This document shows, piece after piece, positions 17,665-52,420 of a DNA stretch of 64,000 bases (positions are counted from its first letter, which is position 1; each line of letters starts with the position of its first letter). The stretch is from a virus, in the IMG/VR virus record IMGVR_UViG_3300048930_000528, positions 1 through 64,000 of that record. One strand, given 5' to 3'. Position numbers and translations under genes: made by a program. Below the pieces are notes generated by a model. The model saw only the letters and a program-made list of their open reading frames with translations, was not told the DNA's origin and made no database searches.

Positions 17665-17693
17665 TGTTTTGAGGTAACAAAATAGAGTGTCAA
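17665..17693 (-). promoter_or_regulatory. Promoter-like element TTGACA-N17-AAAACA
   Basis: On the minus strand TTGACA (17693-17688) is followed after exactly 17 nt by AAAACA (17670-17665), upstream of the 80-aa gene. A near copy with the same spacing lies at 20974-21002. The -35 box is canonical and the -10 is not, so this would be a phage or host variant. Inferred from two matching copies only. Confidence 0.35.
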
Positions 17694-19300
17694 CCTCGGA
17701 TGCGGATGAGTTCCTGCGTCCCCTCTTCAATGGGCGCGAGCAGGTGGGGCATCATCGCATTGGTGATGATCGGGTAGGTGAGCGCGTCGAAAACGTGCAG
17801 GTGGTCGCTGCGCACGGGAGTCAGCGCGAGGTCCGGGTCGAATGCCTCGCCGGGCTTTTGCTCCTTCGATTCGAGGAGGTTCAGCATCGCCTGGATCTTC
17901 GTGCATCCCGCCGACACCCAAAAGTCGCCGGCACTGATGGCATCCATGAGGAGCCGCGTGCGAAGCGGCACGGAGCCGGCAAACTTTGGCGCAGGCCTTA
18001 CTTCAATGCGCGGGAGGCTCAGCGCGTCCACTACGGCGTTGCCAGCGGCCTCAAGCTCCGTCACGTCGAAGGAACCCGAGCCCGCCTTGAACTGGTTGAA
18101 CGCCGAGTTGTCCGAGATCCATACGTTCTGAAAACGTCCGCCAACCTGCTGCTGCCACCACGCCAGCCGGCGGAGCACGACGGGCATGAGCACCTCGTAC
18201 TTGATCCGGCGGCGGTTGATGACGACTTCGTCGAAGGCGACCCACTTCATGCGCTGCTCGATGGGCAATCGCTGGAGCATGACGAAGGCGTTGTAGACGG
18301 CGCCAGGGTCCATCCCGATGATGATGGGGTAGCCCACGGTCGGCAGAATCCATTCCGGGCTGTCGAGCGCCGGCTTCACGTAGCGCATCGCAATCCACAC
18401 GTCCTTGAAGATCGACGTGCCGCTGGGCCTGTCCACCCACTCGCCGCGGAGCATGCGCGCCGCTTCGACGGGGTCATGCTTGTAGAGCTTCTCCAAGCCC
18501 TCGATGTAGCCCTTGGGCAAGTTGTGCCTGTTGCTGGAAACCGGAACGTGGACCCGGTGATAGTCGGGGTCCCATCGGTCAGCCTTCTCGTCGTAGGCCT
18601 CTACCATCCATACCTGATGAACCCAGTGCTTCGGGCTGTCTGGGTTGCACGCGGCGGTGTACTGCTGAGGGCCTTCGATGCCGGGCCGGCGACCGACCTG
18701 AATGGCGACGGCGTTGAGATACTCGCGGCTGTCGCAGGAGGTCAGTTCGTCCCAAAGCACAAAAGACGGCTCGAAGCCGCGCATACGGTCGCGTAGCTGT
18801 GTCGCATGCGGGCAGGAAATTAGAACGACAAGCGACCAGCCGCCGTGCCTGTTGCCTATCCAGAGGTACTCGTTGTGCTGCGAGTCGTACTTCACGTCGG
18901 TGTACTCAAGGCCCATTCCATCATCGAGTAGGTTGCCGTCGGGGTCGCGATTGCCATCCCTCCACGTCGGGAGGATTTGGTTCACGAGCTTGTCCCAAAC
19001 ACCGCCCTTCGTGGCCATTGATCGAACACGAACGCCGATCAAGCAAAGCGCGTTCGCATTCTCGTAAGCATGCCTAACTAGCTTATGGCCAAGGCTATGG
19101 GTTTTCCCGCTTCCCTTCTCGCCGTCTGCAAGAATGAATTTTGCAGGCGAATCGAATATCTCCTGCTGCTCAGGCCCCAGCATCGGGCTCCACCCGCCAT
19201 CGTCGGACGTCTTGCGTGGTTTCTTCGGTGGCGGCGGCGGAGGTTCGATGACCTCGTGAAGCGCATCCAGCGCCTCGGCGTCGATGGGTAGGCGCGGCAT
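17690..19300 (-). CDS. terL: Terminase large subunit
   Basis: 536 aa from ATG 19300, which overlaps the upstream stop (TAATG). The ATPase has Walker A DGEKGSGKT (residues 59-67) and Walker B FVLWDE (180-185). The C-terminal RNase-H-like nuclease shows three acidic sites: GYPIIIGMDPGAV, NVWISDNSAF and DHLHVFDALTYP. It packages DNA into the prohead through the portal with its small subunit. Proline-rich residues 20-28 form a flexible N-terminal arm. The gene order TerS-TerL-HTH-portal is typical. Confidence 0.93.
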   Translation of the reverse strand: MPRLPIDAEALDALHEVIEPPPPPPKKPRKTSDDGGWSPMLGPEQQEIFDSPAKFILADGEKGSGKTHSLGHKLVRHAYENANALCLIGVRVRSMATKGGVWDKLVNQILPTWRDGNRDPDGNLLDDGMGLEYTDVKYDSQHNEYLWIGNRHGGWSLVVLISCPHATQLRDRMRGFEPSFVLWDELTSCDSREYLNAVAIQVGRRPGIEGPQQYTAACNPDSPKHWVHQVWMVEAYDEKADRWDPDYHRVHVPVSSNRHNLPKGYIEGLEKLYKHDPVEAARMLRGEWVDRPSGTSIFKDVWIAMRYVKPALDSPEWILPTVGYPIIIGMDPGAVYNAFVMLQRLPIEQRMKWVAFDEVVINRRRIKYEVLMPVVLRRLAWWQQQVGGRFQNVWISDNSAFNQFKAGSGSFDVTELEAAGNAVVDALSLPRIEVRPAPKFAGSVPLRTRLLMDAISAGDFWVSAGCTKIQAMLNLLESKEQKPGEAFDPDLALTPVRSDHLHVFDALTYPIITNAMMPHLLAPIEEGTQELIRIRG

Positions 19301-21047: not shown

Positions 21048-21056
21048 TTATCCACA
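21048..21056 (+). promoter_or_regulatory. DnaA-box-like sequence upstream of the integrase
   Basis: TTATCCACA, an exact match to the E. coli-type DnaA box, lies in the 241-bp gap between the divergent late operon and the integrase. A boxA-like TGCTCTTTACT is at 21010-21020 and TTGACA at 21141-21146. Only one DnaA box is present, so an origin is not demonstrated. The gap probably also holds integrase promoter signals and possibly attP. Confidence 0.35.
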
Positions 21057-23179: not shown

Positions 23180-23401
23180 ATGACCCCCCGCGGCTACATC
23201 CACGGCGACACCGCCGCCGCGAAGTACCTCGGTCTTAAGGACCGCAAGGGCCTCCGCCGCTGGCAGGACGACCCGACGCTCCCTCTGCGCGAGCTGCTCA
23301 CGCCCCGCATCATCAACGGCCACCGCTACTACAAGGTGGCCAACCTCGACCGCTTTATGGACCCGGCGCTCAACACCCCGGCGTCCGCCACCCGCAACTA
23401 A
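23180..23401 (+). CDS. Excisionase-like winged-helix protein
   Basis: 73 aa with an HTH_17/MerR-like layout: DTAAAKYLGLKDRKGLRRWQ, then RIINGHRYYKVANLDRFMD, the classical 'wing then ..YY...LdrF' ending of excisionases. It lies near the integrase and at the head of the recombination operon, so a directionality factor or early regulator is likely. Confidence 0.6.
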   Translation: MTPRGYIHGDTAAAKYLGLKDRKGLRRWQDDPTLPLRELLTPRIINGHRYYKVANLDRFMDPALNTPASATRN

Positions 23402-26066: not shown

Positions 26067-26504
26067 ATGTCACCCCAAACCGTAGCTTTCACGATCCCAG
26101 GGGCGCCGGCAACGATCACAGCCCAGCAGAAGGGGGTGAACTTCAAGAGCCGGGCCTTCTACACGAAGGCAGACGTCAAGCGAGAGGCTCGAAGGCTGCG
26201 CGGCTACGCTCGGCCGCACCGCCCCAGTCAGCCAATGAGTGGTCCGGTGTATTGCCTGATTCGCTACGTGTACCCGATGACCCAAAATCTCGCCAAGAAG
26301 CACGCCGACAAGCTCTCAGTCGAAAATTTCACCCTTTTACACACTCAGAAACCCGATGCTGACAACTCTTCCAAGCTCCTCCTCGACGTCCTCACCGAAT
26401 GCGGGTTCTGGATCGACGACAAGCAGGTCTGCGACCTCTGCCTACAGAAGCGTTACGGCTCCGAACCTCGGATCGACGTCATCATCACCGAGTTCGAGTC
26501 GTGA
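26067..26504 (+). CDS. rusA: RusA-type Holliday junction resolvase
   Basis: 145 aa. KPDADNSSKLLLDVLTECGF and WIDDKQVCDLCLQKRYG match the RusA signature (PD.DN..K...D.L...G...DD..V). RusA resolves Holliday junctions and branched replication intermediates. Start ATG 26067 follows the nuclease stop directly. Confidence 0.85.
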   Translation: MSPQTVAFTIPGAPATITAQQKGVNFKSRAFYTKADVKREARRLRGYARPHRPSQPMSGPVYCLIRYVYPMTQNLAKKHADKLSVENFTLLHTQKPDADNSSKLLLDVLTECGFWIDDKQVCDLCLQKRYGSEPRIDVIITEFES

Positions 26505-26640: not shown

Positions 26641-29393
26641 AACTGTGCGATTTCGAGCTCCTCGACGACGTCACTGAGCCAGTGAAGGCGGCTACGGTGT
26701 CTCCATCCCGTGCATACGGGCTTCGTCCGTACCAAGCGGAGGCCTTCGACGCGATTTACCGCGGCTGGGAAGACCCGGAGGTGCGCGTGCAGATGATTGT
26801 GAAAGCCACGGGATGCTTTCGGAAGGGAACGCCCGTGTTGATGTTTGATGGAAGCGTTAAAGCTATCGAGGACGTCTCCGTAGGGGAGCGGTTGATGGGT
26901 CCAGACAGCCGTCCGCGGTGCGTGATCAGCTTGGCCCAAGGCCACGAGCAAATGTACGAGATTCGTCCGACCAAGGGGGCTTCTCATGTGGTCAACCGTA
27001 GCCATGTCCTGACACTTCTGCGCATCCCTCGCCGGCCTAGTGAGCAATCTAAGGTAGTCGACATGCCACTTGTTGAGTACCTAAACCAGAGCCGTACACA
27101 AAAGCACCTTCTAAAACTTTTCAGGCCCCAATGTGTAGAGTTTGAGGGCACCAATCAGGCGCTTCCCGTGGATCCGTATTTCATGGGGGTTTATCTTGGC
27201 GACGGATCTTGCCTGCATCGCCATTACGGGCGCTGGTCATCCCTCAAAGCTGTCGCCATTACGACCGCAGACCCGGAGATTGTAGCCTCGATCAACGAGA
27301 CTGCATCGAAGCATGGGCTCAATGTGCGTGCTGAGTCTCAAGAGGGCAACAAATCCAAGACCTATCACCTATTCGGAAAGCAGGGGCGCGGCCAGCGGAA
27401 CACGCTGTCACGCATCATGGATTCGCTGGGTGTGTGTTTGGATTCTGGAGCAAAATTCATTCCTCGCGAATACAAGACTGCCAGCATTGCTGAGCGCGCA
27501 GAACTTCTCGCTGGCCTGATTGATACTGATGGAAGTCTCCATGGGTGTGCGGGCTTTGATTTCGTATCCAAGTCGAAGCAGTTAGCCGAGGACGTCGCGT
27601 TCGTTTCTCGTTCCTTGGGGCTGGCTGCTTACGTTAGTCCATGCCGTAAGGGCTGTCAGACGGGTGCAGTTGGTGATTACTACCGGGTATCTATCTCTGG
27701 CGACTGCTCAATTGTTCCATGCCGGCTACCAAGGAAGAAAGCACCGGCAAGAAGGCAGCGGAAGAGCGTCTTGCGGACGGGCTTTTCCGTTCTACCACTT
27801 GGGGTTGAGGAATACTTTGGGTTTTCGCTCGCTGGGGAAGACGGAAGATTCCTGCTAGGCGACTTCACCGTTACCCACAACACCGGCAAGACGGTGCTGT
27901 TCAGCGCAATCGCCAAACACGAGTCCGGACTCGGCCACAAGGTGCTGATTCTGGCCCACACGGACGAGTTGGTTGACCAAGCGATCGACAAATACGCGAA
28001 GCTGATGGGCATGCGGGCCGAAAAAGAGAAGGCCGGCAGCTACGCGAGCCGCTTTGCGAAGACCGTTGTCGGCTCCGTGCAGACCATGGCCGGAAACATG
28101 CGCCTCTCAAGCTGGCCGAAGGGTCATTTTCACACGATCATCGTAGACGAGGCCCACCGTGTCCTGGCCGAGTCCTACCAAAAGGTGCTGAAGCACTTCA
28201 TGGCGGGCGGCGCCCGCGTGATTTGCGTCACTGCAACCCCTGACCGAGGCGATAACCGGCCACTCGGGGAGTTTGTGGACCGTATTTCCTACGAGTACGG
28301 ACTGCTTCATGCCGTCCGGGACGGCTGGCTGATTCGCCCTATCGTGAAAACTATGCCCGTCACGATCGACCTGAACGGCGTTCGCACGAAAAGCCACGAC
28401 TTTGACCAGTCTGAGGTCAGTCATCGACTCGTTCCGTTCATGGCTGCCATCGCCGACGCCATCAAGAAGGCCGCTCCGAACGGCAAGATCATGATTTTCC
28501 TACCGTCGGTTGAGACCGCGCAGATCATGAGTCGCCACATGAACGAGGTCGGCATCACGTGCGACTGGGTGGCCGGCATTTCCGAAGACCGGAAGGCGAA
28601 GATTCAGGCCTACAAGGCGGGGAAAATCCAAGCCATCTGCAACATGGCTCTGCTGACCGAAGGATTCGACCACGACGCCATCGACACGATGGTCATTCTG
28701 CGCCCGACGAAGGTGCGTAGTCTCTACAGCCAAATGGTCGGCCGCGGTACTCGTCCGCTGAATACGATTATCGGAGCCCTGTCGAAGGCGTCGAATGCAC
28801 TGGAGCGCCACGCCATCATCAAGGCATCGGCCAAACCGGTGCTGACCATCTTGGATTTCCTCTGGCTCTACAAGAAGCATGACCTCTGCAAGCCGGCGTC
28901 GCTCGTGTCTGACCGCGAGGACGTCGCCGAGCAGGTCGAAAAGAACATCGAGGCCACGGACGGCGACCTGATTGCAGCCGAGGAGCGCGCCGAGGTGGAC
29001 CTGCTGGCCAAGCTGGAGGAGGCGGTGCGCAAAAACTCCGACCGGAAGGCCGAGGTTGTGGACCCGCTCGCCCTGGCCGCGGAGCTGGGCGACCTTGAAA
29101 TTGCCAACTACACGCCGGACACCAAGCGCGACGCACAGATCCCGACCGTCGAGCAGCTGCGGCAGATCGCAGCCAATGGGGTCAGTGTGGCCAACATCAA
29201 GCACCGGGGACACGCCCGTCTGATTCTTGAGCGGTTGGTCAAGCGGCACGAGCAAGGCCTTTGCCCTGCGCGCCAACTCAACTTCCTACGGACCCTCGGG
29301 ATCGATGCAGCCCACATGAGCTTTCAGGAGGCCAACGACGCCATCAACAAGTGGACCGCCGAGCAGGGCGGAAGGAAGGACGTGATCGCATGA
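26637..29393 (+). CDS. SF2 (DEAH) helicase interrupted by an intein
   Basis: 918 aa from GTG 26637. Extein residues 1-59 and 416-918 rejoin to give Walker A KATG-TGKT, then DEAH in HTIIVDEAHRV, the VTATPDR motif and QMVGRGTRP, a complete superfamily 2 helicase of about 562 aa. Residues 60-415 are an intein (see separate entry). Phage helicases of this type drive recombination and replication, and this one follows RecT, nuclease and RusA. The C-terminus is acidic and helical. The frame is intact through the intein, so splicing is required for ATPase function. Confidence 0.85.
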   Translation: MKLCDFELLDDVTEPVKAATVSPSRAYGLRPYQAEAFDAIYRGWEDPEVRVQMIVKATGCFRKGTPVLMFDGSVKAIEDVSVGERLMGPDSRPRCVISLAQGHEQMYEIRPTKGASHVVNRSHVLTLLRIPRRPSEQSKVVDMPLVEYLNQSRTQKHLLKLFRPQCVEFEGTNQALPVDPYFMGVYLGDGSCLHRHYGRWSSLKAVAITTADPEIVASINETASKHGLNVRAESQEGNKSKTYHLFGKQGRGQRNTLSRIMDSLGVCLDSGAKFIPREYKTASIAERAELLAGLIDTDGSLHGCAGFDFVSKSKQLAEDVAFVSRSLGLAAYVSPCRKGCQTGAVGDYYRVSISGDCSIVPCRLPRKKAPARRQRKSVLRTGFSVLPLGVEEYFGFSLAGEDGRFLLGDFTVTHNTGKTVLFSAIAKHESGLGHKVLILAHTDELVDQAIDKYAKLMGMRAEKEKAGSYASRFAKTVVGSVQTMAGNMRLSSWPKGHFHTIIVDEAHRVLAESYQKVLKHFMAGGARVICVTATPDRGDNRPLGEFVDRISYEYGLLHAVRDGWLIRPIVKTMPVTIDLNGVRTKSHDFDQSEVSHRLVPFMAAIADAIKKAAPNGKIMIFLPSVETAQIMSRHMNEVGITCDWVAGISEDRKAKIQAYKAGKIQAICNMALLTEGFDHDAIDTMVILRPTKVRSLYSQMVGRGTRPLNTIIGALSKASNALERHAIIKASAKPVLTILDFLWLYKKHDLCKPASLVSDREDVAEQVEKNIEATDGDLIAAEERAEVDLLAKLEEAVRKNSDRKAEVVDPLALAAELGDLEIANYTPDTKRDAQIPTVEQLRQIAANGVSVANIKHRGHARLILERLVKRHEQGLCPARQLNFLRTLGIDAAHMSFQEANDAINKWTAEQGGRKDVIA
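26814..27881 (+). other. LAGLIDADG intein in helicase Walker A
   Basis: 356 aa from Cys 60 to the HN at residues 414-415; the +1 extein residue is Thr. Block A CFRKGTPVLMFDGSVKAIED, block B-like SHVVNRSHVLTLLR, endonuclease motifs YFMGVYLGDGSC and LLAGLIDTDGSLHG, block F/G GRFLLGDFTVTHN. Inserted between G and T of ATG-TGKT. Closely related to the intein at 49661-50677, and inserted at the identical point. Confidence 0.9.
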
Positions 29394-31042
29394 GCGCAGA
29401 AGCCCAGGCCTTTGCCGGCCGCACGATGCCGTTCAGCGCGGAGGCCGAGGAGTACCTGCTGTCCTGCTGCCTCATCGATGGAGCGGCCACGATCGCGCAG
29501 TGCGTTCGCATGGAGGTCGAGCCGTCGGACTTCTACGTCCCGGCCAACTTCATCCTGTTCGGCAAGATTCTGGAGGTGTACCAGTCCAAGCCCCCGGTCA
29601 CGATCGAGGTGGTTGCGCAGGAATTGCAGGCCTCGCGGATGCTGGATGAGGTCGGCGGGTTCAACTACCTCATGCAGGTCACGAACCGCGTGCCAACGAC
29701 GGCGAACGCGGACTACTTCATCGCAAAGGTGAAGGAGCTTTCCACCCTGCGTAAGGCGATCCGCAATTTCACGGCTGTCGTGGAGCGCGCCTACCAGTAC
29801 GACGGCGACCTCGACGGCTTCCTAGACTTTGCCGGCGCGGCCACGAGTAAGATTGGCAATGCCGCATGGTCCAAGGACGAGATCCGCCGCGCCGCTGACA
29901 TCACCGTCCCGCCCGATGGAGACGAGGACACGCTGATCGGCGACCGCTACATTTGCCGAGGAGGCCAGTGCATCACGGTGTCAGGCGCCGGCATGGGCAA
30001 GAGCTCTTTTGCGATTCAGGAGGCATTCTCCTACGCGCTTGGGATGCCGCATCTTGGCATGCTGCCAAAGCGCCCGCTGACCTCGCTAATCATCCAGGCC
30101 GAGGACGACGATGGTGACATTGGCGAGGTCGTTGAGTCTGTGAAGCAGTCGCTCAAGCCGGACGGCCAGCCGCTGACAGAGGAGCACATCGAGCAGATCC
30201 GGCAGCGGGTGTTCATCGTCTCCGACAACCGCTCATGCGGCGATTCGTTCCTGCGCAAGCTGGCCGCACTCGTGGACCGAGTGAAGCCGGATCTCGTATT
30301 CATCAACCCACTTCACGCCTACATTGATGGCGACGTGAAGGAGTCCGATGCGGTCAAGCAGTTCTGCCGGCGGGGCCTCAACTCGGTGAACAAGGACAAC
30401 AAGTTCGCCTACATGGTCACGCATCACACGACCAAGCCACCGTCGGAGAAGGTGAAGGAGAAGGCGTGGAACGAGATGATGTACGACATGGCGGGATCGG
30501 CCGACCTGATCAACTGGGCGCGTGCCGTCCGTATCATCAAGGCCGAGCCTTCGCAGGAGGGGAGCTTTACGCTGTACCTCGCCAAGCGCGGGAAGCGAGC
30601 CGGCGTACTCACGGAATCGGAAAGCGGCGCGAGCTTCGAGGTAACCACCAAGGTTCCCATCAAGCACGCGACCGGGACCATCAAGGTCAAGGGCCGGCGG
30701 AAGCCGATTCAGCGAATCTACTGGGAACCACGGGAGCCGACGGAGGAGGAGCAGCGGAAGTCATCTTCGCCTGGCCGATCACGCGGCGACATGGGGCGCC
30801 CGAAGAAATCGAACCATGGCGAGCTGTGCTATTGCTTCCCGGCTTCTTCGGCTGAGCCAGAAGCACTAGCGGCGATTGGTCGCCAAGCCAAGAGCCTGAC
30901 CGGAATTTCTGACCGCACGTTCTATCGTGTCCGCGAAGAACTCATGGACGCCGGCCTCGTCACCGTCACCGACGACGGCGGCTACCGGAGGACGGCCCGC
31001 GGCGATGCCGCTGCCAACGACTATCTCAAATCTCGCCCATGA
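29390..31042 (+). CDS. DnaB-like/RepA-type replicative ATPase with C-terminal wHTH
   Basis: 550 aa from ATG 29390 (overlaps the helicase stop, ATGA). Residues 1-110 resemble the DnaB N-terminal domain (EAEEYLLSCCLIDGAATIAQ, FYVPANFILFGKILEVYQ). A RecA-like ATPase follows with Walker A VSGAGMGKSSF and DLVFINPLHAYIDGD, the AAA_25/RepA type. The last 90 residues look like a winged helix (ISDRTFYRVREELMDAGLVT). Probable helicase or loader at the phage origin. Confidence 0.75.
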   Translation: MSAEAQAFAGRTMPFSAEAEEYLLSCCLIDGAATIAQCVRMEVEPSDFYVPANFILFGKILEVYQSKPPVTIEVVAQELQASRMLDEVGGFNYLMQVTNRVPTTANADYFIAKVKELSTLRKAIRNFTAVVERAYQYDGDLDGFLDFAGAATSKIGNAAWSKDEIRRAADITVPPDGDEDTLIGDRYICRGGQCITVSGAGMGKSSFAIQEAFSYALGMPHLGMLPKRPLTSLIIQAEDDDGDIGEVVESVKQSLKPDGQPLTEEHIEQIRQRVFIVSDNRSCGDSFLRKLAALVDRVKPDLVFINPLHAYIDGDVKESDAVKQFCRRGLNSVNKDNKFAYMVTHHTTKPPSEKVKEKAWNEMMYDMAGSADLINWARAVRIIKAEPSQEGSFTLYLAKRGKRAGVLTESESGASFEVTTKVPIKHATGTIKVKGRRKPIQRIYWEPREPTEEEQRKSSSPGRSRGDMGRPKKSNHGELCYCFPASSAEPEALAAIGRQAKSLTGISDRTFYRVREELMDAGLVTVTDDGGYRRTARGDAAANDYLKSRP

Positions 31043-35409: not shown

Positions 35410-35639
35410 TGCTCATCCTCCACGGCTTTGATCGTCCGGGCGACGGTTTGGGCCTGATCCCGCTCCACGAACTCCTGACACGCCGCCTTCCGCGCGTACC
35501 AGTCCCCCATCCCCGCGGCATGCCACCCCGTGCCTCCCTCAGGCAGCAGAAGCGTGCCGACAATCTGGATGCTCGAAAAGTGCTCGGACAGCTGTGCCGC
35601 GTGCCGCTCGAGAAGCTCCTGTGCCTCGTTGCGGGTCAT
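35406..35639 (-). CDS. Small unknown protein
   Basis: 77 aa from ATG 35639 (MTRNEAQELLERHAAQLSEH), coupled by ATGA. Predicted helix then strand (SSIQIVGTLLLPEGGTGWHA). Unknown. Confidence 0.5.
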   Translation of the reverse strand: MTRNEAQELLERHAAQLSEHFSSIQIVGTLLLPEGGTGWHAAGMGDWYARKAACQEFVERDQAQTVARTIKAVEDEQ

Positions 35640-36085
35640 GACCCCACCTCCCCCTCCAGCGCCTTCTCCGCCCGCTTCCTCAGCCGCCACGCGTACATCC
35701 GGCAGGTGGCAGAGCAGTACTTCGGCTTCCGGGCCATCTTCACGGACAGCGACCACGGGAACAGCGACCCGCAGTGCAGGCACGTGAACTTTGGCGCCGT
35801 CAAAGGCTGGCAGTGATGGTTCACCAACTGCCTCGCAGGCACAGAGATCGCCGTCGGCTTCCAGTCCGTCACCATCCCTTTCTGGACTTTCTGGACTTGG
35901 ACCACCTCGTCCGCTCCCACTGCCAACGTCTCCCGCGCCACTGCCAAAGCCTCCTCCTTACTTTCGGCAGTGACCTCGAGGTCGATCAGGACTGGCACCC
36001 GCGCGTACCCTGCCACCCGCCATCTCGGCAGGTCCACCCTCACTCCCCGCGCCAAGCGCGCCGCTAAAGATTCGCCAGAAGGCAT
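35636..36085 (-). CDS. Phage protein with C-terminal zinc ribbon
   Basis: 149 aa. The C-terminus has CLHCGSLFPWSLSVKMARK, then YCSATCRMYAWRLRKRAE, a CxxC...CxxxC pair like HNH-associated or TRASH-type ribbons. The N-part has a helical DUF-like region (AESKEEALAVARETLAVG). The DNA carries three further ACTGCCA/GGCAGT copies like those in the 37-kb repeat region. Unknown role. Confidence 0.5.
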   Translation of the reverse strand: MPSGESLAARLARGVRVDLPRWRVAGYARVPVLIDLEVTAESKEEALAVARETLAVGADEVVQVQKVQKGMVTDWKPTAISVPARQLVNHHCQPLTAPKFTCLHCGSLFPWSLSVKMARKPKYCSATCRMYAWRLRKRAEKALEGEVGS

Positions 36086-36554: not shown

Positions 36555-36965
36555 TCAAATCACGGGGCCTCCGTATTCGCGTTTTAAGGCCTGCCGGGCG
36601 GCCAGCCTATACCCACGTACCAACCCACGCCAGATCTCGCGAAATCGGGCAGGTTCCCGGCGGCTGGCGGGCCATCCAATTCCGCGCATCCAACCCCAAC
36701 ACCCACCCGGGTACGGTTCGGCCGTCAGCGCCGTAAAGGGCGTGTAGCACCCGCAGCCCAGAACCGCAGTGCCAATTCTCGCCTGGCACCGCCACATCTC
36801 CCGATCGTGCACCGGACACCGCAGGCACACCCGCATCCGCCTCCGCCACGTCCGACGATCCACCCCCCCACTCGCCATCGCCCTCACCATCCCCCACCAC
36901 GACACCTCCCGCCCTGCCTCTGCCACCACCGCCTGCCACTCCGCCATTCGCTTCGGCATGTTCAT
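36555..36965 (-). CDS. Cysteine/tryptophan-rich protein, first gene of the minus accessory operon
   Basis: 136 aa (AEAGREVSWWGMVRAMASGG, RVCLRCPVHDREMWRCQARI, LGCGCYTPFTALTAEPYPGG). Five to six cysteines suggest metal binding or a cysteine-rich ribbon. It lies next to the non-coding repeat region and may be driven from it. Unknown. Confidence 0.5.
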   Translation of the reverse strand: MNMPKRMAEWQAVVAEAGREVSWWGMVRAMASGGVDRRTWRRRMRVCLRCPVHDREMWRCQARIGTAVLGCGCYTPFTALTAEPYPGGCWGWMRGIGWPASRREPARFREIWRGLVRGYRLAARQALKREYGGPVI

Positions 36966-37033
36966 GTCGGTCAGGCTATCATCACCGTCAAGTCACTGCC
37001 ATAAGTCACTGCCACGTCTCGCGGAGCGCACCG

Positions 37034-37118
37034 CCCGGAAAGACGGCACTGCCAAAATCCCTATATATAAAAATACGTAGTATTTTTATAGGGAGTTTTG
37101 GCAGTACTGTCTTTCGGG
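37034..37118. repeat. 85-bp imperfect palindrome with AT-rich centre
   Basis: The left arm starts CCCGGAAAGAC..ACTGCC and reads inwards CCCTATATATAAAAATAC. The right arm mirrors it (GTATTTTTATAGGG, then TTTTGGCAGTACTGTCTTTCGGG in pieces). Centre GTA at 37077-37079. It differs by one inserted C and an extra TATA. GC-rich ends with an AT-only middle could unwind or cruciform, as at an origin or a phage-encoded operator. It lies in the gap between divergent operons. Confidence 0.75.
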
Positions 37119-37173
37119 TGCGCGGGTTGCACTTTTGGCAGTACCTTTTGGCAGTTTTGGCAGTATTGGCAGT
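37099..37173 (+). repeat. TGGCAGT direct repeats (iteron-like)
   Basis: TGGCAGT occurs at 37099, 37136, 37149, 37158 and 37167, the last three spaced exactly 9 bp. In inverted orientation ACTGCCA occurs at 36995, 37008 and 37048. The repeats flank and overlap the AT-rich palindrome, the layout of replication origins with iterons or a multi-site operator. Confidence 0.7.
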
Positions 37174-37445: not shown

Positions 37446-37468
37446 GTTAGATTTTTGAAAAATCTAAC
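37446..37468. repeat. 23-bp perfect palindrome
   Basis: GTTAGATTTTT and AAAAATCTAAC around a single G, followed by two more GTTAG copies (CAGTTAG, AAGTTAG). No loop is large enough for a good RNA hairpin, so a protein-binding operator is more likely. Confidence 0.5.
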
Positions 37469-37507
37469 AGTTAGAAGTTAGTTAACCAAAGATCGGCGAT
37501 GCTTAAC

Positions 37508-37551
37508 AACTCTGAACAAGAGTTCGCAAGCCCTAGATCTTTAACAATTTA
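37508..37551 (+). promoter_or_regulatory. boxB-boxA-like antitermination site
   Basis: A 6-bp hairpin AACTCT/AGAGTT with a GAACA pentaloop (37508-37524) precedes GATCTTTAACAATTTA (37536-37551). Bacterial rrn leaders carry boxB then boxA (GCTCTTTAACA), and lambda boxB hairpins have GAAAA or GAAGA loops. It lies just before a long structured non-coding RNA, where antitermination would protect transcription from Rho. Part may instead be the 5' guide of an omega-RNA. Confidence 0.5.
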
Positions 37552-37552
37552 C

Positions 37553-37880
37553 GTCATGGTTGGTCGGCGGGTTTACACCCTGCTTCCCAAATCCCAGTAG
37601 TGACACGAGCGAAAGCTGGCCAAGCGAATGAGGCGGAGTGTGCGTCTGGGTAACATGGGTGCCCGGGCTTAAGTGTACTGCGCACAGCACGTTGCGAGAA
37701 AAGCGCAGGGGTTGACCCTGTGGCGACGGAAGCCTCTGGACACGAGCGAACAGTGAGTCGGCATTACGGTGCCGGAACAGCGCCCCTCCGATGCTTGGAA
37801 AATGGGTCCTAATGCGGCCACGTGCCTACAGTTGTGTGCGTGCCGGTTCCAAGCCCGGAAGACGACGCAGAGGAGACCCA
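37553..37880 (+). ncRNA. Structured RNA resembling HEARO/omega-RNA, without iscB
   Basis: No frame of useful length runs here, yet stems are dense: CAGGG/CCCTG at 37706-37720, CGGCA/TGCCG at 37759-37774, a 9-bp stem between 37816 and 37844 (loop CTACAGTTGT), and GCGAATGAGGCGG-like stretches typical of HEARO. The order of conserved blocks (AGCGAAAGC, then AAGCCTCTGG, then CTAATGCGGCCA, then TGCCGGTTCCAAG) matches HEARO RNA as I remember it; no search was possible. HEARO is the guide RNA scaffold of IscB. The gene behind it (37887) is unrelated to IscB. Alternatives are a group II-like remnant or another large phage RNA. Confidence 0.6.
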
Positions 37881-37886
37881 AAGACC

Positions 37887-38279
37887 ATGAGTGAGAAGAT
37901 GTTGGTTGCATACGAAGTCAGCATTGCTGACCGGATTAAGGCTGCGCAGGCGCAGCTCAAGGCGCTCAAGGACGAGCGTTACGGCACTCTGCCGCGCATC
38001 AGTGCGGAGGAGTTGTCTGTCGTGGTGGCGAACGAGAAGCTGGTGTCCACGACGCACGAGGTGGCGAAGCTGGCCGCGGAGTTGCGGTCGGAGCGCCGGT
38101 TCACGGAGGAGGACAAGGATCAGGTGGCGGCGGCGAAGATCGCGCACCGGATCGAGGTGAACACGGAGGCGGTGAAGGCTGAGGCCGTGCGCAGCGTGCG
38201 TGATGCGCGTCTGACGGGCTTCAAGCTGACCCTCCGGAAGGACGGTCGGACCGCCGTGCGTGTGTCGGGAGTGATCTGA
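37887..38279 (+). CDS. Unknown helical protein directly after the structured RNA
   Basis: 130 aa from ATG 37887 (MSEKMLVAYEVSIADRIKAA). Mostly charged helices (AAQAQLKALKDERYGTLPRI, KLAAELRSERRFTEEDKDQV), ending in strands (GFKLTLRKDGRTAVRV). No RuvC, HNH or other nuclease motif, so it is not IscB. It is followed by a terminator. Its start (AAGACCATGAGTG) is only 6 bp after the RNA end. Confidence 0.6.
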   Translation: MSEKMLVAYEVSIADRIKAAQAQLKALKDERYGTLPRISAEELSVVVANEKLVSTTHEVAKLAAELRSERRFTEEDKDQVAAAKIAHRIEVNTEAVKAEAVRSVRDARLTGFKLTLRKDGRTAVRVSGVI

Positions 38280-48088: not shown

Positions 48089-51000
48089 ATGATTAAAGAC
48101 CAACGATCCGGCATCTCTGCGGAGAACCTCCAAGAGATCATCGAGGCCGGCGTCAGCGCAGCGCACTCGCTCCAGGGCGGAGCGCAGCAGTACAGCACGC
48201 CTCAGTGGCTGGCCAACGCCTGCCGCCAGCTGATCACGGACGCCCGGCCTTCGTGCGTCCTTGATCCCCAAGGTGCGGCAGGCAACCTCGTCAATGCCCT
48301 GCCCGATGGCGTCACCCGCTACGTCACGGACATCGACAACCGCATGGGCGAGGACGATGCCTCGCACCTCATCAAGCGCATCAAGGGCAACTGCGTCTAC
48401 ATCTTCGAGCTGTTCGATGAACTGTACCCGCACGTTCAGTTCCCGTGCATCGTCGCCAATCCACCCTTCGGCATCCGCTGGAAGCAGGCCGACGGCACCA
48501 CAATCGACAGCACTCAGTGGACGTGGGACCTCATCAAGAAACGCCTGACCATTGGCGGCTGCGGTTTCCTGATCTCCAACGCCAACACTCTTGAGCGCCT
48601 CGGCATCACCGCGGACCCGTGGGTCTACATCGTGCAGCGCTTCCCGGCCGGCGGCATCTGGCCCGACTGCAACGTTGAGCTTGGCATCGTGCACTTTGCC
48701 AACAGCGCGTCCAATATCCTGCCGCGAAAGCAGGTTGTGACCTGGGACCGTGTACCCACGGCGAGCGACATCATCCGCCGCCTGTCTGGCGACGTTGCCA
48801 ATGCGCCGTACCGTCGGGCGACGTACGCCAACCCATTCACCGAGTTTGAGGTGGTGTCCAAAATCATTTCCGAGGAGGCGAAGAACCGGCCCCAGTTCAA
48901 CATCTACCTCGACAAGAATGGCATGCTGCGGACCTACCTCAGCCTGCGCCATCACCACAAGTTCAAGGAGGACGACGTCAAGAAGCTGTTCCGCGTGAAC
49001 AACTGCCACCCACTATCCCTCACCACGGAGCGCGACACGCGGAAGCTCATGTTCGAGCTGGCCAACGCCGGCATCTACACTATCCAGCCCGAGGCCAAGG
49101 CCGCCATCGAGCAGGCGCTTGCCGAAGTCGCCAGCCTTGCCTGCCCAATCCGCCCGGTCACCGACTTCGAACTGGTCGCCTACGCCGACGAAGAGGACAC
49201 GCTTGTCGCCATCTCCGGCACGGTTGACGGCATCCACCTCACGCCCGGCAAGCGGTACGAAGTTGGCACTGGCACGTACACCTTCACGGATCGCTTCACC
49301 CGCAAGAAGATCCACTTCAACGAGGAGACCGAGGAGACCACGATCGACGAGCACGACTGCGAACTCTCCGGGCAAGATCGCTACGTGCAGATCACGGACG
49401 ACCGAGGCATGCAGCACCGCTTCATGGAGCGACCCGAGACCGGCATCAAATGGATGCACCCGGAGTCCATGCTTTGGACTTTGTTCAAGCGTCCCTTCGT
49501 TCCCACCGTTGGCGAAGTCATGGCTGATTGCGTGGCGACCAACCTCCAGAAGATGGCGTTCTCTGAGCTAGTCGCTGGCTTCACCTATTTCCCCGGCCAG
49601 CGTGACTACTATTCCCGCATGGCGTGCAAGGATTATGGGCTGGTGGCTGCGAGTACCGGATGCCATGCGAAAGGGACGCTAATCATGATGAGCGATGGCC
49701 GAAATAAAATCGTGGAAGACATCATTGTTGGTGATTGCGTGATGGGTTGGGACTCGACGCCGAGGCGGGTCACTCGCTTGGCTCAAGGGCGTCAGCAGAT
49801 GGCCAAGATAATCCCCACTAAAGGAGATCCGTTCGTCGTCAACTTGGACCATATTTTAACGCTGGTTAAGACCGGAACAAGTTCGTCGGTCGGCGGGGAC
49901 GTAATTGACGTGAAGGTCAGAGATTACCTCGGATGGAAGCCATCGCAAAAGCATATTTATAAACTCTTCCGCAAGGAGATTAGCCTACAAGCAAAACCAA
50001 TCGACTCCCTTTCGCCGTACTTCATGGGGGTTTACATTGGCGACGGGACATCGACGTCGTGGCAGGTTGCAATTACAAAGCCCGACAAGGAGGTTGAGGA
50101 TGCTGTTGCCGATGAGTGCTCAAAGTGGGGATGGCGATACAGGACCGCGTTGCGGTCTGGGTCGGAAACGAATAAGACACACTTCATCCCAGGTCACGGC
50201 ATAAAGCGAGAGCTTTATCAACATGGGCTTCTTGGAATACACTCAAGCAATAGGTTTATTCCAGACGCTTACAAGTACAACAGCCGTGATGTGAGGCTTG
50301 AGGTTCTTGCTGGCATCATTGATAGCGACGGCCACCTTTGTGATGCCGGAACATTTGACTACATAAGCCAATCGCAATCTCTTGCCGATGATGTTGTGTG
50401 GTTGGCTAGATCAGTCGGGCTTGCCGCTTACGTGAAGCCATGCCAGAAGTATTGCCAGACCGGAGGCGGAGGCACGTATCATAGGGTTTCCATATCAGGC
50501 GAACTCTCTATCATTCCAACAAGAATCAAGCGCAAGCAAGCCGCGCAACGCAGGCAGAAGAAAAGCGTCCTGCGAACAGGATTCAAAGTTGAGCTTCTGC
50601 CAGAGGATGACTACTACGGGTTCAGTATTGAAGGCGACGGGCGGTTCTTGCTTGGCGACTTTACAGTGACCCACAACACCGGCAAAACCCTGGGGGCTTT
50701 GACACTCATCAGCCTCAAGGCGCCGCGCCGTTCGCTCATCATCGCTCCGCAGGGAACGATGCGCTCGTCCGGCTCGGAGGAGGAGGTTGATTATCAGGCA
50801 TCGCAGTGGGTGCAGGAGATCACGCGCTTCGCCCCGCTCGAGCCCGTGTTCCAGTTGTTCAGCATGCAGGATTACCTGTCCGTCCTGCACGCCAACGGCG
50901 GCGTGCTTCCGCCCGGCATCTACGTCACCTACCCGCAGGCTTACTTCTCCAACAGCGCCTTCGAGTCCTTGCCTGCCACATGGGAAAACCTCGACGCCTT

Positions 51001-52420
51001 CGAGACAGAGGAAAAGTTCTGCCGGCGCATGGGCCTGCCGTTCAGCAAGGATACTCCCGTGGAGCGCCACTACCACACTGGCGTTGGCTCGGCCAAGAAC
51101 GGTATCCGGTGCGTGGCGACGCCGTCGCTGTCCACCGTCATCGCAACCAACCATGGCGAGTGGGACATGGTTGTCTTGGACGAGGCGCACCTTTACCAGA
51201 GCCTTGAATCTTGCATCACGAACAACATGATCCGGCTTCAACCGCGGTTCAGGTTCGCACTCACTGCCACACCAATCAGCAACATCATCACGAACATATT
51301 CAGCCTCATGGGTTGGCTGTGCGTGAAGGACTGGTACAGGGGTGGGATGCGTAACGCCGCATGGCCCTATGCCGTGGACGAGGGGCATCGGTTTTCGACG
51401 ACATTCCTTGCCACCGAGATCGACCGCACGGCGCAGCTCAAAGCCAAGATGAAAGGCAAGAAGGGGTGGGGCAAGATCGGCATCAGGCCGTCGCCCGTCA
51501 TCAGTTCCCCGGCTCGCCTGCTCAAGCTCCTCAAGCCGACGATGGCGTACATCTCCAAAGAGGACTGCAACCCCAACCTCCAGCCGTGCACCGTGTCCGA
51601 TGTCCGCGTGCCAATGGGTCGCGAGCAGGCCAAGCTCTATGCGTACTGGCTGGAGCGGGCCAACTACGTTCCCGAGTTCAAGAACCCGCTGACGATCGCC
51701 CAGGTTCAGATGTCCCGGCTGCGTGGCGTCTGTGCCTCGCCGGCCAGCCTCGACTACACCCGCGGCATGGCCCGGTCCAACTTCAACCCGAAGACCGTCA
51801 CCATCCTTCAACTCATCCGTGACTGCCTCCGCAAGGGCGAGCAGGTGGTTGTCGTCTCGGCTCGTGTTGGCCAGTCAAACGAGTTGGCGCGTCGCCTTTC
51901 CGAGGCCGGAGTCCAGATCGCACGCATCGACTCGACCGTGCCGGCGGAGATGCACACGGCTGAGGCCAACAGGTTCAAGCGTGGCGACGCCCGCGTCATG
52001 CTCATGGGCATCAAGTGCGCACAGGGTCACTCGTTTGACCGATGCCCCAACCTCATCGTTGGCTCGCTCGAGTGGTCCTACGGCACGCTCGACCAGGCGA
52101 AGGGCCGGGTGTGGCGCCTGACCTCGCCTCAGCCCGTCAAGGTGTGGATCGTCCTTCACCAGAACACGATTGAGGAGCTCCTGTTCGACCGGGTTGCGCT
52201 CAAGCAGGACGCCGCCACGCTGTGCCTTCACGGCAAGCGGGTGCCGCGTGACTTCAAGACGCTTGACCCGAGCGAGGTGCTGGCCGAGCACATCGTTGAC
52301 TTCGACCACGAAGGCGAGACGCGGTCCGAATCCGAGTGCGAAACGCAGTGGCCCGACCTGCGCAAGCAGCTCGTCCTCGCCAACAACAGCGGCATCCCGG
52401 CCGGCTTCGCCGCGGCCTGA
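48089..52420 (+). CDS. N6-adenine methyltransferase-helicase fusion with intein (antirestriction-like)
   Basis: 1443 aa. Residues 56-128: motif I CVLDPQGAAGNL and catalytic NPPF in IVANPPFGIRWKQ. Residues 524-864 and onward form an SNF2/SF2 helicase: Walker A STG-TGKT split by the intein, DEAH in WDMVVLDEAHLYQSL, FALTATPISN, QxxGRxWR in LDQAKGRVWRLTSP. Extein about 1104 aa. P1 DarB is a known methylase-helicase virion antirestriction protein, so a similar role is inferred. Follows the MT-A70 cassette. Confidence 0.85.
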   Translation: MIKDQRSGISAENLQEIIEAGVSAAHSLQGGAQQYSTPQWLANACRQLITDARPSCVLDPQGAAGNLVNALPDGVTRYVTDIDNRMGEDDASHLIKRIKGNCVYIFELFDELYPHVQFPCIVANPPFGIRWKQADGTTIDSTQWTWDLIKKRLTIGGCGFLISNANTLERLGITADPWVYIVQRFPAGGIWPDCNVELGIVHFANSASNILPRKQVVTWDRVPTASDIIRRLSGDVANAPYRRATYANPFTEFEVVSKIISEEAKNRPQFNIYLDKNGMLRTYLSLRHHHKFKEDDVKKLFRVNNCHPLSLTTERDTRKLMFELANAGIYTIQPEAKAAIEQALAEVASLACPIRPVTDFELVAYADEEDTLVAISGTVDGIHLTPGKRYEVGTGTYTFTDRFTRKKIHFNEETEETTIDEHDCELSGQDRYVQITDDRGMQHRFMERPETGIKWMHPESMLWTLFKRPFVPTVGEVMADCVATNLQKMAFSELVAGFTYFPGQRDYYSRMACKDYGLVAASTGCHAKGTLIMMSDGRNKIVEDIIVGDCVMGWDSTPRRVTRLAQGRQQMAKIIPTKGDPFVVNLDHILTLVKTGTSSSVGGDVIDVKVRDYLGWKPSQKHIYKLFRKEISLQAKPIDSLSPYFMGVYIGDGTSTSWQVAITKPDKEVEDAVADECSKWGWRYRTALRSGSETNKTHFIPGHGIKRELYQHGLLGIHSSNRFIPDAYKYNSRDVRLEVLAGIIDSDGHLCDAGTFDYISQSQSLADDVVWLARSVGLAAYVKPCQKYCQTGGGGTYHRVSISGELSIIPTRIKRKQAAQRRQKKSVLRTGFKVELLPEDDYYGFSIEGDGRFLLGDFTVTHNTGKTLGALTLISLKAPRRSLIIAPQGTMRSSGSEEEVDYQASQWVQEITRFAPLEPVFQLFSMQDYLSVLHANGGVLPPGIYVTYPQAYFSNSAFESLPATWENLDAFETEEKFCRRMGLPFSKDTPVERHYHTGVGSAKNGIRCVATPSLSTVIATNHGEWDMVVLDEAHLYQSLESCITNNMIRLQPRFRFALTATPISNIITNIFSLMGWLCVKDWYRGGMRNAAWPYAVDEGHRFSTTFLATEIDRTAQLKAKMKGKKGWGKIGIRPSPVISSPARLLKLLKPTMAYISKEDCNPNLQPCTVSDVRVPMGREQAKLYAYWLERANYVPEFKNPLTIAQVQMSRLRGVCASPASLDYTRGMARSNFNPKTVTILQLIRDCLRKGEQVVVVSARVGQSNELARRLSEAGVQIARIDSTVPAEMHTAEANRFKRGDARVMLMGIKCAQGHSFDRCPNLIVGSLEWSYGTLDQAKGRVWRLTSPQPVKVWIVLHQNTIEELLFDRVALKQDAATLCLHGKRVPRDFKTLDPSEVLAEHIVDFDHEGETRSESECETQWPDLRKQLVLANNSGIPAGFAAA
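49661..50677 (+). other. LAGLIDADG intein in methylase-helicase Walker A
   Basis: 339 aa from Cys 525 to the HN before TGKT. CHAKGTLIMMSDGRNKIVED, SPYFMGVYIGDGTSTS, LEVLAGIIDSDGHLCD, then GRFLLGDFTVTHN. Related throughout to the intein at 26814-27881 and inserted at the same codon position. Confidence 0.9.

Follow-up and report, generated by a model that had tools for sequence, protein, structure and literature searches.

Positions 36,995–37,173 of the DNA analysed here most likely form a phage replication origin. In the best-supported reading, which is drawn by analogy, this origin would be built like PICI/SaPI origins, yet be unlinked from the helicase gene. The window, i.e. the whole stretch that was analysed, comprises bases 1–64,000 of the 72,049-bp IMG/VR virus record IMGVR_UViG_3300048930_000528. 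Its gene content is of the temperate tailed phage type, and it encodes two tyrosine integrases, RecT, a PD-(D/E)XK exonuclease and RusA, as well as DEAD and SNF2 helicases, a DnaB-like helicase, a clamp-loader-like ATPase, methyltransferases and structural genes. The SNF2-type helicase ORF (48089–52420, +) contains a Hom_end/Hint (intein-like) insert. Blastn against INPHARED gave no match for 30–44 kb (megablast) or for 35–39.5 kb (distant search), and no close relative of the window was found.

Iteron array and palindrome

The array consists of exact copies of one heptamer, written ACTGCCA on the left (36995, 37008 and 37048) and TGGCAGT on the right (37099, 37136, 37149, 37158 and 37167). 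An earlier, sequence-only reading had counted three inverted and five direct copies, three of the latter at 9-bp pitch; the exact positions bear out both the count and the pitch, with copy spacings of 13 and 40 bp on the left and of 37, 13, 9 and 9 bp on the right. The features are:

36555..36965, −, first gene of the leftward operon, start codon 30 bp left of the array
36995..37014, −, left distal iteron pair, TGGCAGT at 13-bp pitch, 12-bp direct repeat AAGTCACTGCCA
36995..37155, no strand, extended gapped dyad, ACTGCCA at 36995/37008/37048 mirroring TGGCAGT at 37149/37136/37099
37035..37118, no strand, imperfect 84-bp palindrome, hairpin-capable, 4-nt bulge in the left arm
37048..37057, −, left inner iteron TTTTGGCAGT, T-tract centre-facing, within a palindrome arm
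37060..37095, no strand, AT-rich core CCTATATATAAAAATACGTAGTATTTTTATAGGGAG, proposed melting or hairpin element
37096..37105, +, right inner iteron TTTTGGCAGT, within a palindrome arm
37133..37142, +, right iteron TTTTGGCAGT
37146–37155, 37155–37164 and 37164–37173, +, right iteron triplet at 9-bp pitch
37887..38279, +, first gene of the rightward operon, preceded by a leader of ~710 bp

Each site is a directional heptamer and not itself a dyad, and all eight share one orientation relative to a centre at ~37,076. The consensus iteron is TTTTGGCAGT, with its T-tract on the centre-facing side; the full 10-mer is present in five sites and two further sites are one base off. It occurs exactly five times in the 72-kb record, every time within the array, and since there is no further copy in the record there is no dispersed regulon. 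Eight copies of one 7-mer in 200 bp make this the densest 7-mer cluster of the window, and in Markov-1 simulations of a 64-kb genome (n = 20) the largest cluster held 3–4 copies, never more than 4. Four GGCAGT-type sites, among them the inverted pair ACTGCCAAAG-N12-TTTCGGCAGT, make up another cluster 1.1 kb to the left of the main array (35808–35971, inside ORF 35636–36016); it is weaker, and borderline against chance expectation.

The 85-bp palindrome of the sequence-only reading is present, although it measures 84 bp and is imperfect, four extra nucleotides (TATA) interrupting its left arm. Its arms (37035–37057 and 37096–37118) form an inverted repeat of 23 nt with 87% complementarity. The centre had been described as AT-only, which did not hold: 37063–37091 has 4 G/C in 29 nt, with ACGT mid-way, and is properly called AT-rich. 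Most of the repeats do border the palindrome as described, but one copy in each orientation sits inside its arms. The 60-bp segment at 37054, which contains the AT-rich core, has the lowest GC content (28%) in 64 kb. Folded as single-stranded DNA, 37030–37125 gave −32.6 kcal/mol, against −9.6 ± 2.2 kcal/mol for shuffled sequences (z −10.3). Rfam matches of miRNA type to the palindrome, all below the gathering scores, were rejected as generic hairpin matches.

Gapped alignment of left halves with the reverse complement of right halves showed that the dyad is larger than had been noted, reaching the 13-bp-spaced pairs on both sides. It scores 71, the highest of all long palindromes in the window, where the next independent site reaches 49 and the mean is 20.7. 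Because the 13-bp-spaced repeats pair left with right, most of the array is a single dyad of ~160 bp, beyond which lie two extra right-side copies.

Position between divergent operons

The array lies between divergent operons, as the sequence-only reading had it, with ORF 36555–36965 (−) on one side and the first plus-strand ORF at 37887 on the other. Relatives of ORF 36555–36965 (loci L003–L013) belong to unrelated phages and are without arrays; for ORF 37791–38279 the search found no relatives.

The rightward operon has a long leader in which several elements were observed. A short hairpin, TTAGATTTTTGAAAAATCTAA, lies at 37449–37469 within the second lowest-GC 60-mer of the window. At 37539–37549 (+) stands CTTTAACAATT, possibly an antitermination signal, which we take to resemble the boxA of rRNA-operon leaders. 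Positions 37806–37878 (+) match the type-P1 twister ribozyme at 46.8 bits (E 5e-9), under the gathering score of 67.2 bits; the conserved UAA, GCCGGU-CCAAGCCCGG and GAGG blocks are present, and the 3' end of this twister-like RNA falls at the ribosome-binding site of ORF 37887–38279.

GC skew around 37.1 kb, a check suggested by the sequence-only reading, agreed with it. At 37.0 kb the skew changes sign, from −0.18 to +0.19, a jump three times as large as the second largest, and no such flip is seen at the divergent junction at 21.08 kb, which served as a single control. The flip is nevertheless confounded because it coincides with divergent transcription, which could produce part of the change. 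There is no DnaA box by the array, the nearest exact TTWTNCACA lying at 26335, and the array thus differs from a DnaA-dependent plasmid iteron origin. A perfect DnaA box, TTATCCACA, was noted at 21048–21056 in the other divergent intergenic region, beside an integrase gene.

The helicase as a candidate iteron-binding protein

The proposed cognate initiator is the DnaB-like helicase of the window, which ends 6 kb before the array begins (31042 and 36995, respectively):

29390..31042, +, proposed cognate initiator/helicase, with a DnaB N-terminal domain, AAA_25 (RepA/DnaB-like) and a C-terminal winged helix
30854..31033, +, predicted C-terminal winged helix (residues 489–548), proposed iteron binder

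The body of the protein matches DnaB in Foldseek. Its C-terminal tail was modelled by AlphaFold2 in the order helix-helix-strand-strand-helix, which is winged-helix-like, with a pLDDT of 57–75. No other replication initiator was recognised among the ORFs scanned.

The tails most like this one belong to the helicases of L119, Vibrio phage 1.123.O and L033, all three of which have arrays. The closest winged helix is that of L119, whose motif is different, and that of L033, where the motif is the same, comes third; when motifs were set against the similarity of the winged helices, the two did not correspond cleanly. The modelled domain may read the TGGCAGT motif, a link that is suggestive only, since L033 alone of the closest tails shares the motif.

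Arrays with the same iteron in other viral contigs

IMG/VR was scanned for the motif both as 9-bp tandem repeats and in inverted form, and most of the matches were coding repeats. The arrays richest in copies of both orientations adjoin replicative helicase genes. In L033 (the same contig as L146) an array of ten copies begins at the end of an AAA_25 helicase gene, whose product is 31% identical to the window helicase over 371 residues. In L046 (six copies) and in L097 an array of the identical iteron comes straight after a DUF3987 helicase gene. The arrays of L033/L146, L046 and L097 all have the tandem 9-bp pitch and both orientations around a palindrome. L044 has a single tandem iteron pair 3' of a DUF3987 gene. 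Mixed four-copy TGGCAGT clusters in L040 and L039/L047 adjoin no helicase gene, which counts against reading the array as an origin.

Most of the 32 viral matches to TTTTGGCAGTNTTGGCAGT were set aside as coding repeats in tail and other genes. A scan of genome contigs for three tandem copies gave two matches (Pirellulaceae and Prosthecobacter MAGs), where no adjoining replication gene was recognised. A distinct set is formed by L094 (873–929), L096 (8883–8941), L099 (11233–11289) and L100 (126–182), which share a conserved, near-perfect palindrome of ~80 bp containing one inverted pair, ACTGCCAAAA..TTTTGGCAGT, between a leftward ParB-like gene and a rightward gene of ~900 residues.

Unbiased search at helicase loci and in named phages

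Relatives of the window helicase were collected by profile, and the most clustered 8-mer anywhere in each locus was determined. At many loci this top cluster follows the helicase stop codon at a distance of no more than a few hundred bases, with copies in both orientations. Its motif differs from phage to phage (TGGGAAAA in L101, GGCCACAA in L102, GGTGACAC in L107, GTGTCCCA in L119 and ACTGCCAC in L146). Compared with 400-bp segments of the same loci, repeat clustering was in the top 5% at 13 of 55 loci and palindrome length at 19 of 55, each against 2.75 expected, some of these loci not being mutually independent. The form CCC-(A/T)2-9-GGG was found in 19 of 45 segments 3' of helicase genes, compared with 77 of 1169 controls (Fisher p 9e-11), and on inspection the iterons face a palindrome of this CCC..GGG kind in L101, L116, L119, L146 and others. 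The core of the window, CCCTATA...TATAGGG, has a longer centre than this form, and one that is not purely A/T. Tandem runs have a pitch of ~8–9 bp in many arrays, irrespective of motif. At L165 (5518–5635) six TGACAAAA iterons, in a threefold repeat of ~54 bp, lie directly 3' of a DUF3987 helicase gene.

Two observations limit the pattern. Many helicase relatives are without a strong array, especially a large marine group without the C-terminal winged helix-turn-helix. In most of the relatives that do bear one, moreover, it is directly 3' of the helicase gene, unlike the window, where it is 6 kb off, which counts against the assignment.

Named phages show comparable layouts. In Rhodoferax phage P26218, CTGCTAC iterons surround a CCCCTTTAGG..CCAAGGGG palindrome located 3' of the RepA gene, and in Vibrio phage 1.076.O, TGTCCG repeats surround CCCTATATATAGGG 3' of a DnaB-like helicase gene. 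Vibrio phage 1.123.O carries at least six copies of CCGCGAG, with AT-rich stretches, between divergent operons and upstream of the one that encodes the helicase; this placement is like that in the window, and its helicase has the same DnaB-N architecture as the window helicase. No array was found at a Wolbachia phage WO locus or at the helicase loci of BUCT618 and Yersinia X1.

The array of the window resembles the helicase-linked arrays of L033/L146, L046/L164, L097/L166, L101, L102, L107, L119, Rhodoferax phage P26218 and Vibrio phages 1.076.O and 1.123.O in having iterons of both orientations, a CCC..GGG or AT-rich palindrome and a tandem pitch of ~8–9 bp, three contigs sharing its very motif. 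It differs in that most of them have another motif and that all except Vibrio phage 1.123.O adjoin the 3' end of the helicase gene. Judged by a class defined from these comparators, the window has the orientation, palindrome and pitch of its members, and its helicase is of the AAA_25 or DUF3987 kind found in them.

Comparison with known origins

In PICI/SaPI origins two iteron sets flank an AT-rich region (PMC6092414), and in PICI/SaPI and SCCmec the C-terminal domain of the helicase recognises the iterons (PMC6092414, PMC7581432). As in the pri-rep-ori arrangement of SaPIbov1 and EcCICFT073, two sets of short iterons in the window flank an AT-rich candidate melting region, and the genome encodes its own helicase with a predicted C-terminal DNA-binding domain, here a winged helix predicted with moderate confidence (PMC6092414, PMC7581432). 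The differences are that the PICI origin is directly 3' of rep, whereas the array is 6 kb away and between divergent operons; that the AT-rich region of the window is itself a long palindrome; and that the window helicase is DnaB_N + AAA_25, not DUF927 or D5/Primase_Cterm. A place immediately 3' of the helicase gene was tested for and not found, and for this reason the array was not filed as a PICI-type origin. The putative origin of SCCmec Cch2, whose repeats are bound by the helicase C-terminal domain (PMC7581432), likewise combines short direct repeats with hairpin-capable inverted repeats; it differs in having three 5-nt AAGTG iterons immediately downstream of cch2.

The long palindrome recalls the stem-loop of ~100 nt at the origin of pRN1, which is needed in cis and functions when moved elsewhere on the plasmid; the pRN1 helicase, too, has a C-terminal winged helix (PMC4234260). 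pRN1 is, however, without iterons and has a prim-pol/SF3 helicase protein. The window, with a stem-loop but also iterons and with a different type and place of the gene, does not belong to the pRN1 type. RSF1010/IncQ oriV combines iterons, an AT-rich region and hairpin start sites with RepA, a hexameric helicase of the AAA_25 type, and the window shares iterons, AT-rich region, hairpin and helicase type with it. In RSF1010 the iterons are longer and are bound by a separate RepC (RepC–iteron recognition is mentioned in PMC4234260), and no RepC or RepB' homologue was recognised in the window.

Proposed function and alternative interpretations

The sequence-only reading had proposed an iteron origin with a melting region or, alternatively, a many-site operator. 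The first proposal is supported by the recurrence of the same motif and inward-facing layout 3' of helicase genes in unrelated contigs and, by analogy, by the match in layout to the published PICI/SaPI origin (PMC6092414). It had also named free variation of the repeats among relatives as a finding against an origin. This was not seen in a comparison of architecture covering unrelated viral contigs and the named phages: the motif changes between phages while the architecture is kept. In the mechanism that we propose, the phage's own DnaB/RepA-like helicase (29,390–31,042) or a partner protein would bind the left and right iterons by means of a winged-helix domain, probably forming two assemblies that face each other. 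The AT-rich palindrome would then melt or extrude as a hairpin, yielding single strands on which two helicase rings could load for bidirectional replication.

Since divergent operons flank the array, iteron binding may also regulate their transcription. That initiator binding represses the flanking operons as well, a sub-case of the origin reading whose probability overlaps with it, is a real possibility, although we lean against it. Plasmid iteron initiators commonly autoregulate, and the placement in both the window and Vibrio phage 1.123.O fits such a double role; the proposed initiator gene is, however, in neither flanking operon, and for this reason classical autoregulation is not obvious. 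A pure operator or early control region, at which a phage regulator would bind TGGCAGT cooperatively and repress or activate both divergent early operons, we regard as unlikely. The left edge of the array, 30 bp from the leftward start codon between divergent operons, is where a promoter is expected, and a regulator could bind cooperatively to copies in direct and inverted orientation. Yet no sigma-70-like promoter is suitably placed over the sites, and no repressor-like (CI-like) protein was recognised among the neighbouring ORFs scanned against Pfam, apart from a weak HTH_17 match at 23180. Operators are usually dyads, whereas the single sites here are directional heptamers, which together with the want of a recognised repressor in the scanned ORFs sets the array apart from a CI/Cro-type operator. 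Elsewhere, moreover, the arrays sit 3' of helicase genes and not at divergent promoters.

Sites of the parS and pac types can likewise have iteron arrays beside palindromes, but a centromere/partition or DNA-packaging site in place of an origin is very improbable here: no ParA/ParB-like match was found in the subset of ORFs scanned, two tyrosine integrases are present, and the terminase-like ORF (17690–19018) is ~18 kb away from the array. Hardly credible is a transcription terminator or structured RNA element with incidental repeats. The hairpin potential is strong, but both a U-tract and a terminator-like call are absent at the palindrome, which is upstream of both operons, and eight directional copies far exceed what a hairpin needs.

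Implications

Tentatively, with confidence a little short of even, we propose a modular origin design common to tailed phages with RepA/DnaB-like or DUF3987 helicases. It would consist of fast-changing iterons at a pitch of ~9 bp, read by the C-terminal winged helix of the helicase and facing a short CCC-(A/T)-GGG palindrome, and the module could exchange its usual position after the helicase gene for one between divergent early operons, as in the window and Vibrio phage 1.123.O. Neither the motif nor this class of array plus palindrome beside RepA/DUF3987 helicases in tailed phages was found described in the open-licence papers searched. Origins have been mapped in very few temperate phages. 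If the proposal is true, phage origins would be predictable from sequence through a repeat array and palindrome linked to a helicase, and the pairs of motif and winged helix across phages would constitute a natural data set on how initiator specificity changes. The PICI origin layout, which has been called a PICI hallmark (PMC6092414), would then also be common to full-size phages.
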